A DNA stretch of 64,000 bases from an uncultured Planctomycetia bacterium (lineage in GTDB: Bacteria > Planctomycetota > Phycisphaerae > FEN-1346 > JAACEH01): positions 1 through 64,000 of the forward strand of contig CAIYVX010000059.1 in NCBI GenBank assembly GCA_903929765.1. The letters run 5' to 3'. The notes beneath the pieces were generated by a model. That model saw only the letters and a program-made list of their open reading frames with translations, did not search any database and had not been told where the DNA came from. Positions within the stretch are counted from its first letter, which is position 1. The number at the start of each line of letters is the position of its first letter. Both the position numbers and the translations under genes were made by a program. Positions 36 to 62,893 of this stretch are shown piece after piece.

Positions 36-54
36 CCCCCAGCAATGCTGGGGG
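36..54 (+). repeat. REP-like palindrome (CCCCCAGC family), copy 1
   Basis: Perfect 9-base arms CCCCCAGCA/TGCTGGGGG around one base. A leader reading AGAAACAGTGT precedes it, and CTTCAT plus a long AAG/GAA polypurine tail follows. This leader-palindrome-tail layout defines a family with nine copies in the window. Confidence 0.9.
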
Positions 55-966: not shown

Positions 967-985
967 CCCCCAGCAGAGCTGGGGG
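967..985 (+). repeat. REP-like palindrome, copy 2 (AGA centre)
   Basis: CCCCCAGCAGAGCTGGGGG, with AGAAACAGCGT leader. Its polypurine tail, built from units close to AGAAGCAAAAGA, runs from 986 to the ribosome site of the gene starting at 1057. Confidence 0.88.
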
Positions 986-9739: not shown

Positions 9740-10867
9740 GTGGCGACCGGCATTATCAAAAAGCTCTCGTTTCTCGACCGCTACCTGACGCTCTGGATTT
9801 TCCTGGCCATGGGCGTCGGCGTTTTCCTCGGCTATGCCGCCCCCGGCGTGGGCGGGTGGATTGGTTCGCTGCGGCCCGCCGGGTCGCAGACCAGCGTGCC
9901 TATCGCTCTGGGCCTGATTCTGATGATGTACCCGCCACTGGCCAAGGTGAAGTACGAGGAACTGGGTGACGCTTTCCGCGACTTCAAGGTCTTGGGCCTC
10001 TCGCTGGTGCAGAACTGGATCATCGGTCCGGTGCTGATGTTCGCCCTGGCCATTCTGTTCCTGCGCGGCCAGCCGGAATTCATGATCGGCCTGATCATGA
10101 TCGGCCTGGCCCGCTGCATCGCCATGGTCATCGTCTGGAACGACCTGGCCAAGGGCGACACGGAATACGCCGCGGGCCTGGTGGCCTTCAACTCGATCTT
10201 CCAGGTCTTCTTTTACAGCGTCTACGCCTGGCTGTTCGTCACGGTGCTGCCGCCGATCCTGGGTTTCAAGGGGGCCGACACTTCCGCCATCACCATCGGC
10301 CAGATCGCCCAAAGCGTTTTCATATATCTCGGCATCCCGTTTCTGGCCGGCATGTTGACGCGGCTGGTGCTGGTCAAACTCAAGGGCAAGGAGTGGTATC
10401 ACACGAAGTTCATTCCGCGCATCTCGCCGCTGACGCTCGTCGCCCTCCTTTTCACCATCGTGGTCATGTTCTCGATGCAGGGCCGCAGAATCATCGACCG
10501 GCCCGGCGACGTGGTGCTGATCGCCGTGCCGCTCCTCATCTATTTCGTGGTCATGTTCTTCGTCAGTTTCTGGATGGGCCGCAAGGCCGGGGCGGGTTAC
10601 GCCAAGACCGCCACGCTCTCCTTCACCGCAGCGAGCAACAACTTCGAGTTGGCCATCGCCGTGGCTGTCGGCGTCTTCGGCATCAACCACGGCGCCGCCT
10701 TTGCGGCCGTGATCGGACCGCTGGTCGAGGTGCCCGCCCTGATCGGCCTGGTCAACGTCAGCCTGTGGCTCAGGAAGAAGTGGTTCCCGGCCGAGGCGGG
10801 GGAGATCGAGGCGGTTGCTTGTTGCCCAGTTGCACCCGGGGCGGTTTTCGAACGGAAAACGACATAA
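9740..10867 (+). CDS. acr3: Arsenite efflux transporter, ACR3 family
   Basis: 375 residues with ten hydrophobic helices, GTG start. ACR3 landmarks are [15 protein letters not shown] and [19 protein letters not shown], the latter containing the membrane cysteine essential in characterised ACR3 proteins, and [22 protein letters not shown] near the C terminus. It exports arsenite using the proton-motive force. The stop is 19 bases before the arsM ATG. Confidence 0.95.
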
Positions 10868-10886
10868 AAGCGGAAGAGGTCTGACA

Positions 10887-11663
10887 ATGGACGCGAAACA
10901 AACTCACGAGGTGGTCCGAAAAGCTTACGCCGAAGCCGCCCGCAAGCAAGCGTGTTGCTGCGAAAAGAAAGCGTCGTCCTGTTGCGAACCGAAACCGTAC
11001 AGCGTTCCCGACCATCCGGTGCCGGAGGCGGAACTGGGCCTCTCGTGCGGCAATCCGCTGGCTTTCGGCCACATTCGCCCCGGTGACATGGTCGTGGACC
11101 TGGGCAGCGGCGCGGGCAAGGACGTGTTCCTGGCGGCGCAGAAGGTCGGCCCTGCCGGTCGGGCCATCGGCGTTGACATGACGCCGGAGATGCTGGCCCT
11201 GGCGGTACGGAACGCCGAGAAGTTTGCCGCGACCACCGGGCTGACCAACGTTGAGTTTCGCCAAGGGCTGATCGAGGCCCTGCCGGTCGCGGACGGCACG
11301 GCGGACGTGGTGATCTCGAATTGCGTGATTAATCTTTCGCCGGACAAGGCCCAGGTTTTCCGCGAAGTCTACCGCGTGTTGAAGTCGGGCGGCCGGATGA
11401 TCGTCAGCGACATCGTGCTCAATCGCGAGTTGCCGGCGGCGGTCCGCGAAAACGAGCGGCTCTATTCGGCGTGCCTGGCCGGTGCTTTGCTGCGCGACGA
11501 CTACCTCCAGGCCATTCGCGAAGCGGGATTCCACCAGGTTGAACTCCTGAGCGACCAGCGGCGCGAGCCGAAGGACGCTATCGACGATCCGATCACAAGC
11601 GGCGCGGCCGAAGTTCTGGCCGACGCGGCTTCGAGTGTTACGGTGCTGGCGGTGAAGGATTGA
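10887..11663 (+). CDS. arsM: Arsenite S-adenosylmethionine methyltransferase
   Basis: 258 residues from ATG 10887, preceded by GGAAGAGG. An N-terminal Cys cluster (CCCEKK, then SSCCEPK) is followed by the SAM-binding VVDLGSGAGKD. Three family cysteines sit in GLSCGNPLA, VISNCVINLSPDK and YSACLAGAL, the positions that bind arsenite in ArsM. It converts arsenite to methylated and volatile arsenicals. It is the last gene of the arsenic unit. The convergent clpB gene ends 15 bases after its stop, leaving no room for a separate terminator. Confidence 0.93.
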   Translation: MDAKQTHEVVRKAYAEAARKQACCCEKKASSCCEPKPYSVPDHPVPEAELGLSCGNPLAFGHIRPGDMVVDLGSGAGKDVFLAAQKVGPAGRAIGVDMTPEMLALAVRNAEKFAATTGLTNVEFRQGLIEALPVADGTADVVISNCVINLSPDKAQVFREVYRVLKSGGRMIVSDIVLNRELPAAVRENERLYSACLAGALLRDDYLQAIREAGFHQVELLSDQRREPKDAIDDPITSGAAEVLADAASSVTVLAVKD

Positions 11664-11678: not shown

Positions 11679-14276
11679 TTAACCCGTCGCCTTCGCCGTG
11701 AAGCTCAGCGCCTCCCCGTCGGCATCGACCTTGATCGTCGATTTCGGCGGGAACTCGCCGGAGAGTACCTTCCGGGCCAGAGGATTCTCCAGCAATTGTT
11801 GCACGGCCCGCTTCAGCGGCCGCGCCCCGTAGGTCGGATCGTAGCCCGCTTCGGCCAACAGTTTCTCCGCTGCCGCCGTCACCTCGATCTTGTAATCCTG
11901 TTCCGCCAGCCGCTTGGCCAGCAGCTTCACCTGCAGCTTGACGATCCGCGCCAGTTCCTTCGCCGTCAGGTTCTGGAACAGAATCACTTCGTCGATGCGG
12001 TTCAGGAACTCCGGCCGCAGGGTCGAGCGCAGCAACTCCTTGACCTTGGCCTCGATTTCCCAGGCCGGGGCCTTCTCGTCGGCCATCTGCTGAATCATCT
12101 GGCTGCCGATATTTGAAGTCATGATAATGACGGTGTTGCGGAAATCGACGGTGTGACCCTGACCGTCGGTCAGGCGGCCGTCGTCGAGCACCTGCAGGAG
12201 GACGTTGAAAACGTCCGGGTGAGCCTTTTCGATTTCGTCGAGCAGCACCACGGCATAGGGCCGCCGGCGGACCAGTTCAGTCAACCGCCCGCCTTCCTCG
12301 TAGCCGACGTAACCGGGCGGCGCACCGATCAGCCGCGAGACGTTGTGCTTCTCCATATATTCGCTCATGTCGATGCGGACCAGGGCGTCCTCGTCGTCAA
12401 AGAGGAACTCGGCCAGGGCCTTGGAGAGTTCGGTCTTGCCCACGCCGGTCGGGCCGAGAAAGAGGAACGAACCAATCGGCCGCTTCGGATCCTGCAAGCC
12501 CGCCCGCGAGCGCCGCACCGCGTCGGCCACCGCCCGGATCGCCTCGTCCTGGCCGATCACCCGCTCGTGAATGCGATCTTCCATCTTCAGGAGCTTGTCG
12601 CGCTGGCCCTCCAGGAGCCGCGTCACCGGAATGCCGGTCCAGCGAGCCACAATCCGGGCGATGTCCTCCGCCTCCACCTGCTCGCGCAGCATCGAACCCT
12701 TCTTATGTATCTCCTCGTTGCGAGTCTCGGCCGCCGCCACCTTTTTCTGAAGCTCCGGAATCGTCCCGTACTGGAGCCGCGCCGCCTCTTCCAGCTGTCC
12801 CGACCGCTGGGCCTTTTCGACCTCCAGCCGCGCCGCCTCGATCTGTTCGCGCACGGCGCTCACGTCCTGGTGCGCCGCCTTTTCCGTCTCCCACCGCGCC
12901 GTCAAGGCCCGGTCGTTTTCCTGAATGTCGGCCAGCCGCTTTTCCAGATCCTTCAGCCGCTTTTTCGACGCCGCATCGGTTTCCTTCCGCAGGGCCTCGC
13001 GCTCGATCTCCAGTTGCATCTTCTGTCGCCGCAGCACGTCGAGGTCGGCCGGCAGGCTGTCGTTTTCGATTCGCAACCGGCTCGCCGCCTCGTCCATCAG
13101 GTCGATGGCCTTGTCCGGCAGGAATCGCCCCGTGATGTAGCGATGGCTGAGCGTCGCTGCGGCGACCAGCGCCCCGTCGGTGATGCGGACGCGATGGTAA
13201 ACCTCATACTTATCCTTCAGGCCGCGCAGAATGGCGATCGTGGATTCCACGCTCGGCTCGCCGATGTAGACGGGTTGGAAGCGGCGCGCCAGGGCCGGAT
13301 CCTTTTCGACGTGTTTGTGATATTCGTCGAGCGTCGTCGCCCCGACGCAGCGCAGCTCGCCGCGGGCCAGGGCGGGCTTCAGGAGGTTCGAGGCGTCGAC
13401 CGCCCCTTCGGCCCCGCCGGCCCCGACCAGCGTGTGCATCTCGTCGATGAAAAGAATAATCTGCCCGGCAGCCTCGGTCACTTCGCGGATCACGGCCTTG
13501 AGCCGGTCCTCGAACTCGCCGCGATATTTCGCCCCCGCGATCAAAGCCCCCATGTCCAGGGCCACCACCCGCTTGTCCTTCAGGCCCGCCGGCACGTCGC
13601 CGGCCACGATCCGCTGGGCCAGGCCCTCGACGATAGCGGTCTTGCCGACGCCGGGATCGCCGATCAGGACGGGATTGTTTTTCGTCCGCCGCGAGAGAAC
13701 CTGAATTACCGTCCGCACTTCCTCGTCGCGGCCAATTACCGGATCGAGCTTGCCCTTGCGGGCCAGTTCGACCAGGTCGCGGCTATATTTCTCCAGGGCC
13801 TGATATTTTTCCTCCGCGTTGGGATCGGTGACGCGCTGCCCGCCGCGCAACTCCTGAAGAGCGCGCAGCACATGCTCGCGGTCGATGGCGCTGAGTTCCA
13901 GGATTTCCTTGGCTTTGGAGTCGATTTCCAGCATGGCTAGGAGCAGGTGTTCGGTTGAGACGTACTCGTCTTTCAGAATGTCGGCCTCTTTCTGGGCCTG
14001 GCCGAGAATCCGGGCCAGAGCTTGGGCCATCACAATCTCGCCGCCGCTCTGTTCCGGCAACCGCCCCAACTCCACGTCGAGCATCCGCTCGACCTGCGAA
14101 ACATTCCCGCCGGTCTTGGTCAAGAGCGGTTTCACCACGCCCGCCTCGTCGGCCAGCAGCACCGACAGCAGATGCAGCGGCGTCACCTCCGGATGGTTCC
14201 GCGTCTGGGCCAATTGATGCGCCGCCTGCAAAGCCTCCTGTGCCCGCACGGTGTATTTGTTGAGTTGCATGCCCAT
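11679..14276 (-). CDS. clpB: ATP-dependent disaggregase ClpB
   Basis: 865 residues, the usual ClpB length. It has an N-terminal double Clp domain (about 1-150), a first AAA+ module with GDPGVGKT (about residue 205), a coiled-coil middle domain rich in Lys/Glu (about 410-530), a second AAA+ module with GPTGVGKT (about 608), and a C-terminal D2-small domain. The middle domain separates ClpB from ClpA/ClpC. It works with DnaK, encoded upstream on the same strand, to pull apart aggregates. The ATG lies 42 bases past a REP palindrome, whose polypurine tail supplies the only Shine-Dalgarno-like sequence. Confidence 0.97.
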
Positions 14277-14317: not shown

Positions 14318-14336
14318 CCCCCAGCATTGCTGGGGG
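14318..14336 (-). repeat. REP-like palindrome, copy 3, in the clpB leader
   Basis: Read on the minus strand it is CCCCCAGCAATGCTGGGGG with leader AGAAACAGCGT and tail CTTTATAAGAAGAAG, running into the clpB start. It is downstream of the transposase gene, in the same orientation as the upstream copy at 14879-14897. Confidence 0.9.
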
Positions 14337-14374
14337 ACGCTGTTTCTTCTTTTGTTGCTGTTGTCGTTTCTTGC

Positions 14375-14842
14375 TTATTGATTCCTCACGTATTCAACCG
14401 CCGCACAAACCGCCTTCTCTGTGTAAAGTGCCCTTTTGCTCCCATCCTCCGTCCACCATCGCGGCGCCGGCCTTTCGTCCTTCATCTTGTCGAGAGCTTT
14501 CGTGCCGCACTGCTTGAGTACGCCCATCGCCTTTCCCGGAGAAACCTCCCGAGCCGTCAACACGATATGAACATGGTTGGTCCGCACCGCCAGGGCGTGA
14601 ACCATCCAACCGTATTCGCCGCACGCGCCGCCAATGGCCGTTTCCGCCGCGGCTCGCATGGCTTCATCCAGCACTACGGCCGGTCCTTTCAGCAACTCCC
14701 GCGAATGGGCCTCCAAAAGTGGCCTTGCCGCATCAACCGCTTCGCCGCTACGGTGCTGCCGATCAACCCACCCGCGCTCGTCGCCGGGAAGCCAGGAACC
14801 GTAAGTGGTCCAGGTCAGGAAGTATGCCAGGGGATCGCTCAC
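14375..14842 (-). CDS. REP-associated tyrosine transposase (Y1/IS200-like)
   Basis: 155 residues from GTG 14842, which has ACGGAG seven bases upstream. A longer reading frame runs up through the adjacent REP palindrome (encoding PQQCWGLQKKK) and is not believed. The start segment LAYFLTWTTYGSWLPGD and the HUH motif NHVHIVL (His90, His92) are typical of Y1 transposases of the RAYT group. Candidate catalytic tyrosines are Y151 in EYVRNQ and Y140. RAYTs cut and join single-stranded REP palindromes; here two REP copies flank the gene as direct repeats. It sits between clpB and dnaK. No insertion-sequence ends other than the REPs are seen. Confidence 0.85.
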   Translation of the reverse strand: MSDPLAYFLTWTTYGSWLPGDERGWVDRQHRSGEAVDAARPLLEAHSRELLKGPAVVLDEAMRAAAETAIGGACGEYGWMVHALAVRTNHVHIVLTAREVSPGKAMGVLKQCGTKALDKMKDERPAPRWWTEDGSKRALYTEKAVCAAVEYVRNQ

Positions 14843-14878
14843 GGCGAGGCTCCGTAGTTGTTGTTTCTTCTTTTGAAG

Positions 14879-14897
14879 CCCCCAGCACTGCTGGGGG
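14879..14897 (-). repeat. REP-like palindrome, copy 4, upstream of the transposase
   Basis: On the minus strand CCCCCAGCAGTGCTGGGGG followed by CTTCAAAAGAAGAAAC. Its tail points to the transposase GTG, 37 bases away. Confidence 0.9.
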
Positions 14898-14919
14898 ATG
14901 CTGTTGTTGTGACCGGTTG

Positions 14920-15360
14920 TCAAAGGCTACAACTCGGGGGAACTTCTTTCGCCGCGGCAGTTGGTACCATCGCCTGCAATCCCTGCTCGATAACGCGGTT
15001 AAAGAGTACGACGCGATCCTCAAAGCTTTTCCCAACAAATATGGTTGCAAGTCGCTCAATCTGCGACTCGGAGAGGACGGGGTTGTGGCAGATGACTTCG
15101 TGGCACTCGTAGCAACAAGTGACAGTGCCCCTCTTCTTCTTGACGCCCATCGTGTTCCAGGCGGCGTCACTTAAGTTATGGAATTGCTCACGCGACCTTG
15201 CTTTGCCTGTGGCGTGGCCGTAGTGCATGTTCGACTTTGCATCGTGATCGTGAGTTTTTGCGCCCACGGTAAGCTTTTGATTCTTCGCGGTCTTGTTGGT
15301 CGCTGCGTAACGAATGGGTTGTCCGCAAAGACAACACGTCGAGGACAGTTGTTTGGCCAT
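14920..15360 (-). CDS. Small Cys/His-rich protein, possibly HNH-like
   Basis: 146 residues. CCLCGQ near the N terminus, a central HDHDAKSNMHYGH cluster and CCYECHEVICHNP after residue 80 give enough Cys and His for one or two zinc sites. The CxxCHxxxxHNP segment resembles the last part of HNH nuclease folds, but a full HNH motif is not certain. GGGAGAC precedes the ATG. Base composition is lower in GC than clpB and dnaK on either side. It lies between REP copies, so it may be cargo of the cassette. Function unknown. Confidence 0.6.
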   Translation of the reverse strand: MAKQLSSTCCLCGQPIRYAATNKTAKNQKLTVGAKTHDHDAKSNMHYGHATGKARSREQFHNLSDAAWNTMGVKKKRGTVTCCYECHEVICHNPVLSESQIERLATIFVGKSFEDRVVLFNRVIEQGLQAMVPTAAAKEVPPSCSL

Positions 15361-15427
15361 ATTTGTCTCCCGGAAGAACAGAAATCGCTAGCTTATCTTG
15401 TGCTACCGACGAAAACAACAACAGCGT

Positions 15428-15446
15428 CCCCCAGCAATGCTGGGGG
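15428..15446 (+). repeat. REP-like palindrome, copy 5
   Basis: CCCCCAGCAATGCTGGGGG with leader ACAGCGT and tail TTTATAAGAAAAAGC; first of three tandem copies. Confidence 0.9.
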
Positions 15447-15530
15447 GTTTATAAGAAAAAGCAAACAGCAACGGCAACAACAGAAACGGCAGAAGAAAAA
15501 GAAGCCAAGAAAAAACAAAAGAAACAGCGT

Positions 15531-15549
15531 CCCCCAGCAATGCTGGGGG
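15531..15549 (+). repeat. REP-like palindrome, copy 6
   Basis: Same palindrome with leader AGAAACAGCGT and tail CTTTATAAGAAAAAGC. The flanks match copy 5 for about 40 bases, which points to local duplication. Confidence 0.9.
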
Positions 15550-15608
15550 CTTTATAAGAAAAAGCAAACAGCAACGGCAACAACAGAAGCAAAAGAAGAA
15601 ACAGCATC

Positions 15609-15627
15609 CCCCCAGCAGTGCTGGGGG
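15609..15627 (+). repeat. REP-like palindrome, copy 7
   Basis: CCCCCAGCAGTGCTGGGGG with leader AGAAACAGCAT and tail CTTCATAAGAAAC, 33 bases past the dnaK stop. Confidence 0.9.
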
Positions 15628-15660
15628 CTTCATAAGAAACAAAAGCAAAAGCGGCAACAA

Positions 15661-17598
<1,938 letters not shown>

Positions 17599-40173: not shown

Positions 40174-40192
40174 CCCCCAGCACTGCTGGGGG
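40174..40192 (-). repeat. REP-like palindrome, copy 8
   Basis: On the minus strand CCCCCAGCAGTGCTGGGGG followed by CTTCATAAGAAGAAGC. Confidence 0.9.
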
Positions 40193-62838: not shown

Positions 62839-62893
62839 GTTATAAAAAGCCGTTTTCCGCTTGGTGTTGCTGTTTCTTTTGTTTTTGCTGCGC

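Follow-up and report, generated by a model that had tools for sequence, protein, structure and literature searches.

A class 3-like RAYT with flanking REP hairpins between dnaK and clpB in a planctomycete genome

Hairpins and the transposases that accompany them

Several described systems bring Y1 transposases and short palindromes together. GTAG REP/RAYT systems, represented by E. coli TnpA-REP and Stenotrophomonas group 3, have one intact RAYT per REP family and a gene bracketed by REPs (PMC2817692, PMC8266576), and the TnpA-REP enzymes of both bacteria cleave their cognate REPs as single-stranded DNA (PMC8266576). Class 3 TnpA-Y1 proteins, a rare group of the Planctomycetes, are accompanied by REP-like hairpins that lack GT[AG]G and sometimes reach high copy number (Quentin et al. 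2018, PMC6006769). CGTC-tagged REPs, defined by a CGTC tag, a stem starting with AT and a CCA tail, were reported not to flank a RAYT (Di Nocera et al. 2013, PMC3733652). The TnpA proteins of IS200/IS605 elements (IS608, ISDra2) are likewise hairpin-recognizing single-strand transposases.

Here, we describe a locus from a 64,000-nucleotide stretch of an uncultured planctomycete genome (the window), in which a Y1 transposase ORF, a 146-residue Cys/His-rich ORF and five near-identical palindromes fill the 1.38-kb interval between dnaK and clpB. Judged from sequence, the locus best fits a REP/RAYT pair (a "REPtron") whose protein is closest in kind to class 3 TnpA-Y1.

The dnaK-clpB interval and its REPs

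The genes clpB (11679-14276) and dnaK (15661-17598) lie on either side of the interval, both on the minus strand, as a first, sequence-only reading had stated; its transposase between two REPs of the same orientation, its three further REPs and its small Cys/His-rich gene were all located as well. The exact hairpin, CCCCCAGCANTGCTGGGGG, starts at 14318, 14879, 15428, 15531 and 15609. By their asymmetric flanks, the first two copies (14318-14336, downstream of the RAYT, an exact palindrome, and 14879-14897, upstream of it, with a single-stranded hairpin z of -3.05) are on the minus strand, in the gene's own orientation, so that the transposase lies between direct copies. The remaining three lie on the plus strand: one upstream of the small ORF (15428-15446; palindrome match, oriented flanks and fold), one that is second in a local duplication with 103-bp spacing (15531-15549; palindrome match) and one closest to dnaK (15609-15627; palindrome match and oriented flanks). 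Additional REPs were matched at 36-54 (plus), at 967-985 (plus, one mismatch) and, with its orientation, at 40174-40192 (minus), and at up to three mismatches the window holds nine palindrome matches against 0.07 expected from shuffles. On the other side of clpB, at 9740-11663, are ORFs that by eye look like arsenite permease and arsenite methyltransferase genes.

The transposase gene (14375-14842, minus strand) encodes 155 residues, with a likely GTG start at 14842 and GGAG upstream; a longer ORF from a TTG runs through a REP. The protein matches Pfam Y1_Tnp above the gathering threshold (E=1.2e-5) and NCBIfam REP_Tyr_transpos weakly, below cutoff. Residues H90, H92 and Y151 are invariant in an alignment of 21 homologs, and the 30 best PDB fold matches of its AF2 model (pLDDT 88.8) are all Y1 transposases, with IS200/IS605 TnpA proteins as the best structural matches and E. 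coli TnpA-REP (4ER8) among the rest. With an HUH motif and one catalytic tyrosine in a Y1 fold, it is a member of the Y1/HUH transposase superfamily.

The sequence-only description of this protein as REP-associated needs to be refined, as it is not a typical GTAG RAYT and fits best in the published class 3 TnpA-Y1 group (PMC6006769), with which it shares a planctomycete distribution, the NHVH and W[TA] motifs, a core of about 155 residues and flanking, high-copy hairpins that lack GT[AG]G. The homologs picked up among named genomes are in records labelled as Planctomycetota or one of its subgroups. The tyrosine motif of class 3 is YV[VI][AENY]EQ (Y----Q), whereas the window protein ends in YVRNQ followed by the stop codon, and its relatives include YVMNQQ and YVLDEQ. 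Class 3 hairpins also have a reported 5' foot of CnGA, which the window REPs do not; theirs reads C(G/A)T on one strand and mostly GAAG on the reverse.

The consensus of 85 REP copies runs from a triplet tract, described below as (MAR)n, through CAGC(G/A)T, CCCCCAGCA(R)TGCTGGGGG and CTTCA(W)AAG to a second such tract. When copies are oriented by their flanks the middle base is nearly always A or G, in support of the orientation assigned. Folded as a single strand of DNA, the REP forms a stem of 8 bp closed by a 3-nt loop, with z of about -3 to -3.6. The dimensions are those of REPSm, and the locus is also like the GTAG systems in its one intact RAYT per REP family, its gene bracketed by REPs and its fold near 4ER8; it differs in that base frequencies over the 85 copies reveal neither GTAG nor GTGG at the hairpin foot on either strand, the reverse foot being mostly GAAG. 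The foot reads CGTC in 51/85 copies, recalling the CGTC-tagged REPs. Against this, it reads CATC in 27/85, the last C falls inside the stem and a RAYT is adjacent; membership in that family is ruled out by the stem, which starts with CC rather than AT, and by the tail, CTTCA rather than CCA. We also considered a guide-cleavage pairing between the AG of the reverse-strand foot and a nearby CT, but the CT is too poorly conserved across relatives for this to be claimed.

Copy number, relatives and co-divergence

The genome that contains the window (3.83 Mb in 116 contigs) has 153 palindrome sites at up to one mismatch, compared with one for a reversed-pattern control, and one full-length transposase. 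Nearly all other matches to the transposase query are REPs read within the over-extended TTG ORF, and the only further match from a profile search is partial and distant, and weak at E=0.001. This is the arrangement that defines a REP/RAYT pair: the RAYT is present once, with REPs on both sides of it, and those REPs are numerous genome-wide. Unlike IS200/IS605 elements, the system shows no IS-like spread of the gene, its hairpins are dispersed alone and its cassette has no tnpB.

These counts bear on the strongest competing explanation, in which the RAYT, the small gene and the outer REPs move together as an IS-like transposon whose cargo is the small gene. That the outer REPs are mutually inverted would suit such an element, as would the state of the site in a sister genus (G001), the sole same-family genome among the relatives searched. 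There, dnaK and clpB are neighbors about 305 bp apart, and no RAYT, REP or small ORF was found in this spacer; the site is unoccupied in that genome. Since the two spacers are too diverged to place the ends of an insertion, the difference reflects either gain by one of the two lineages or loss by the other. Gain is favored by sequence composition, because GC3 is lower in both cassette ORFs (0.68, 0.63) than in clpB and dnaK (0.83, 0.86), a difference that a mobile cassette would also explain. The clpB loci of 28 other relatives are uninformative, as dnaK was not found beside clpB at any of them. We nevertheless regard the IS-like transposon as unlikely: the RAYT and the small ORF each occur once in the genome, no small-ORF homolog was found at the related RAYT loci tested, and the REPs are scattered without the gene.

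The small ORF itself (14920-15360, minus strand) is best seen as a passenger and is probably unrelated to REP function. Its 146 residues have a weak HNH-like pattern (CxxC ... CxECHE) with a sub-threshold Pfam match to AI2M-like_HNH (E=0.04), and an AF2 model built without an alignment was uninformative, with a pLDDT of 42. No credible homolog was found in 100 relatives or in viral, phage and plasmid collections, and a sample of 392 genomes of the phylum yielded a single distant one (31% over 73 residues; locus L241, 1261-1749, where the adjoining ORF looks phage-tail-like by eye). With credible homologs missing from the 100 relatives and from the tested RAYT loci, the cargo gene raised as a possibility by the sequence-only reading is not supported.

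Across relatives, the exact REP occurs in zero or one copy in 99 of 100 genomes and in five copies in the remaining one, G045, which carries the RAYT closest to that of the window (55% identity). The generic hairpin TCCCC..GGGGCTT is clearly above control in 8/101 genomes, and the genomes with the four closest RAYTs are all among these eight, an overlap with a chance of about 2e-5 (hypergeometric by hand, uncorrected for kinship). The layout of a RAYT between two REPs of its own orientation recurs in G045 and G087; in G075 the upstream REP is present and the contig ends just past the RAYT gene. Over 32 homolog loci, the density of hairpins close to RAYTs is 5.6 times that found elsewhere, and at 15 of these loci a qualifying hairpin within 350 bp is absent, as is often the case for the more distant RAYTs.

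The REP family is specific to the RAYT lineage, with the exception of G003, G005, G007 and G025, which bear related hairpins and in which no close full-length RAYT was detected. The sequence-only reading had asked whether the palindromes are as common where the transposase is lacking; the exact palindrome is nearly absent from the relatives, and the related hairpins in these four genomes keep the answer from being fully clean. Three of the four assemblies are fragmented. In G005, a fragment that matches the first RAYT residues lies at the end of a contig, and G007 has a partial match; no recognizable REPs were found beside either, so that neither can be assigned to this RAYT clade. Strains of E. 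coli that bear REPs but have lost the RAYT have been reported (PMC3733652). Other hairpin families were seen in passing. G096 has 182 CCCCGCRT-N4-AYGCGGGG hairpins, almost none with the TCCCC..GGGGCTT flanks, and only distant RAYT homologs were found in it. In G005, which is among the four exceptions, a contig (C37; locus L152, 469-828) carries 98-bp units in tandem, in each of which two different hairpins, TCCCCACGCGGTGCGTGGGGCTT and TCCCCCGGCGGTGCCGGGGGCTT, stand head to head, resembling a REPIN array. In G076 (C4; locus L036, 17-447), an eleven-unit array of CCCGCCGC hairpins at 41-bp spacing lies directly upstream of a RAYT homolog.

In the protein tree, seven RAYTs flanked by (R)T-CCCC...GGGG-CTT hairpins form one clade (support 95/89). 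Within it, the subclade of the window's RAYT (97/90) has hairpins with a 3-nt loop, and 4-nt loops are found with G087 and G075 (97/92) and also at locus L162; stems vary between relatives while the (R)T and CTT flanks stay constant. The sampling is small and the hairpin-type label was picked after the hairpins had been seen. The window's RAYT groups with genomes from outside its own order, and its identity to the G045 protein (55%) exceeds that of the N-terminal region of ClpB (49%), which together hint at horizontal transfer of the RAYT and REP as a pair.

REPs have known host roles at transcript ends, in mRNA protection and in protein binding. The palindromes could be selected host sites beside which the RAYT lies by chance, and stable hairpins in noncoding DNA, the dnaK-clpB spacer for one, would be in keeping with this. 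We consider it very improbable, since the palindrome is missing from the same-family genome and from nearly all relatives, hairpin type tracks RAYT clade, and hairpins cluster around RAYTs in other genomes.

Triplet tracts, proposed mechanism and implications

The polypurine tail attributed to the REP by the sequence-only reading is present, but it is not part of the REP. It is a genome-specific tract of triplets, (MAR)n, with A or C first (M), A second and A or G third (R), found on both sides of the hairpin, and also without REPs. Such tracts lie between the RAYT and its downstream REP (14340-14372, minus), between the three REPs of the plus strand and on past them to the dnaK stop codon (15463-15660, plus), and elsewhere in the window around REPs and other intergenic repeats (1-90, 934-1057 and 62867-62890). 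The genome has 551 overlapping start positions of (MAR)8 against 111 in the control, and none of 100 relatives has more than 17. Across 260 kb (the window plus REP-blind stretches), 7/10 REPs are near a tract and 5/15 merged tracts are near a REP; some of the others adjoin different intergenic repeats. The triplets resemble Lys and Gln codons, but their phase differs between the two sides of the hairpin, which makes a translated frame through the REP unlikely. A brief literature search found no published account of such tracts. Another palindrome common between genes, CCCTCACCC ... CCTCTCCC ... GGGAGAGGGGTGA (loci L203-L210 and L120, 1191-1494), adjoins (MAR)n tracts here and is also present in the G001 dnaK-clpB spacer.

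Slippage during replication, or local duplication, driven by these tracts could in principle multiply the REPs independently of the RAYT. This would accord with the tracts around most REPs and other repeats and with the duplication of REP and tract at 103-bp spacing, but it is hardly credible, since the tracts vary from site to site around a near-invariant hairpin and are not needed in G075, G087 and G005, which are rich in such hairpins and have almost no (MAR)8.

We therefore return to the REP/RAYT pair. The pairing is well supported by the single copy of the gene, its intact catalytic residues, the proliferation of the palindrome, the co-occurrence and co-divergence of the two, which would be expected of an enzyme that disseminates its repeats, and the unoccupied site in G001. 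To this extent the earlier pairing of the enzyme with these REPs as likely substrates holds up; cleavage and copying are steps that we infer. Very probably, this is a single-copy and apparently immobile RAYT that spreads the cognate REPs flanking it. The enzyme would most likely bind the single-stranded REP hairpin, probably on the lagging-strand template, and would nick and rejoin near its foot. REPs may thereby have spread to other sites, to about 150 copies, while the RAYT gene itself stayed put. Instead of GTAG, recognition would apparently depend on hairpin architecture together with two short flanks, (R)T to one side and CTT(C) to the opposite side. A wider proposal, that class 3 RAYTs in general read a hairpin with (R)T and CTT(C) flanks without GTAG and that a separate, undescribed process builds (MAR)n around REPs and other intergenic repeats, is speculative, and we think it doubtful as a whole.

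The locus shows that REPs with a CGTC-like foot can have a RAYT adjacent. In addition, these genomes provide a natural series, outside the Proteobacteria and without GTAG, in which RAYT clade and REP architecture diverge together, so that the specificity of RAYTs for their REPs can be put to the test in the class of these enzymes that has been studied least.
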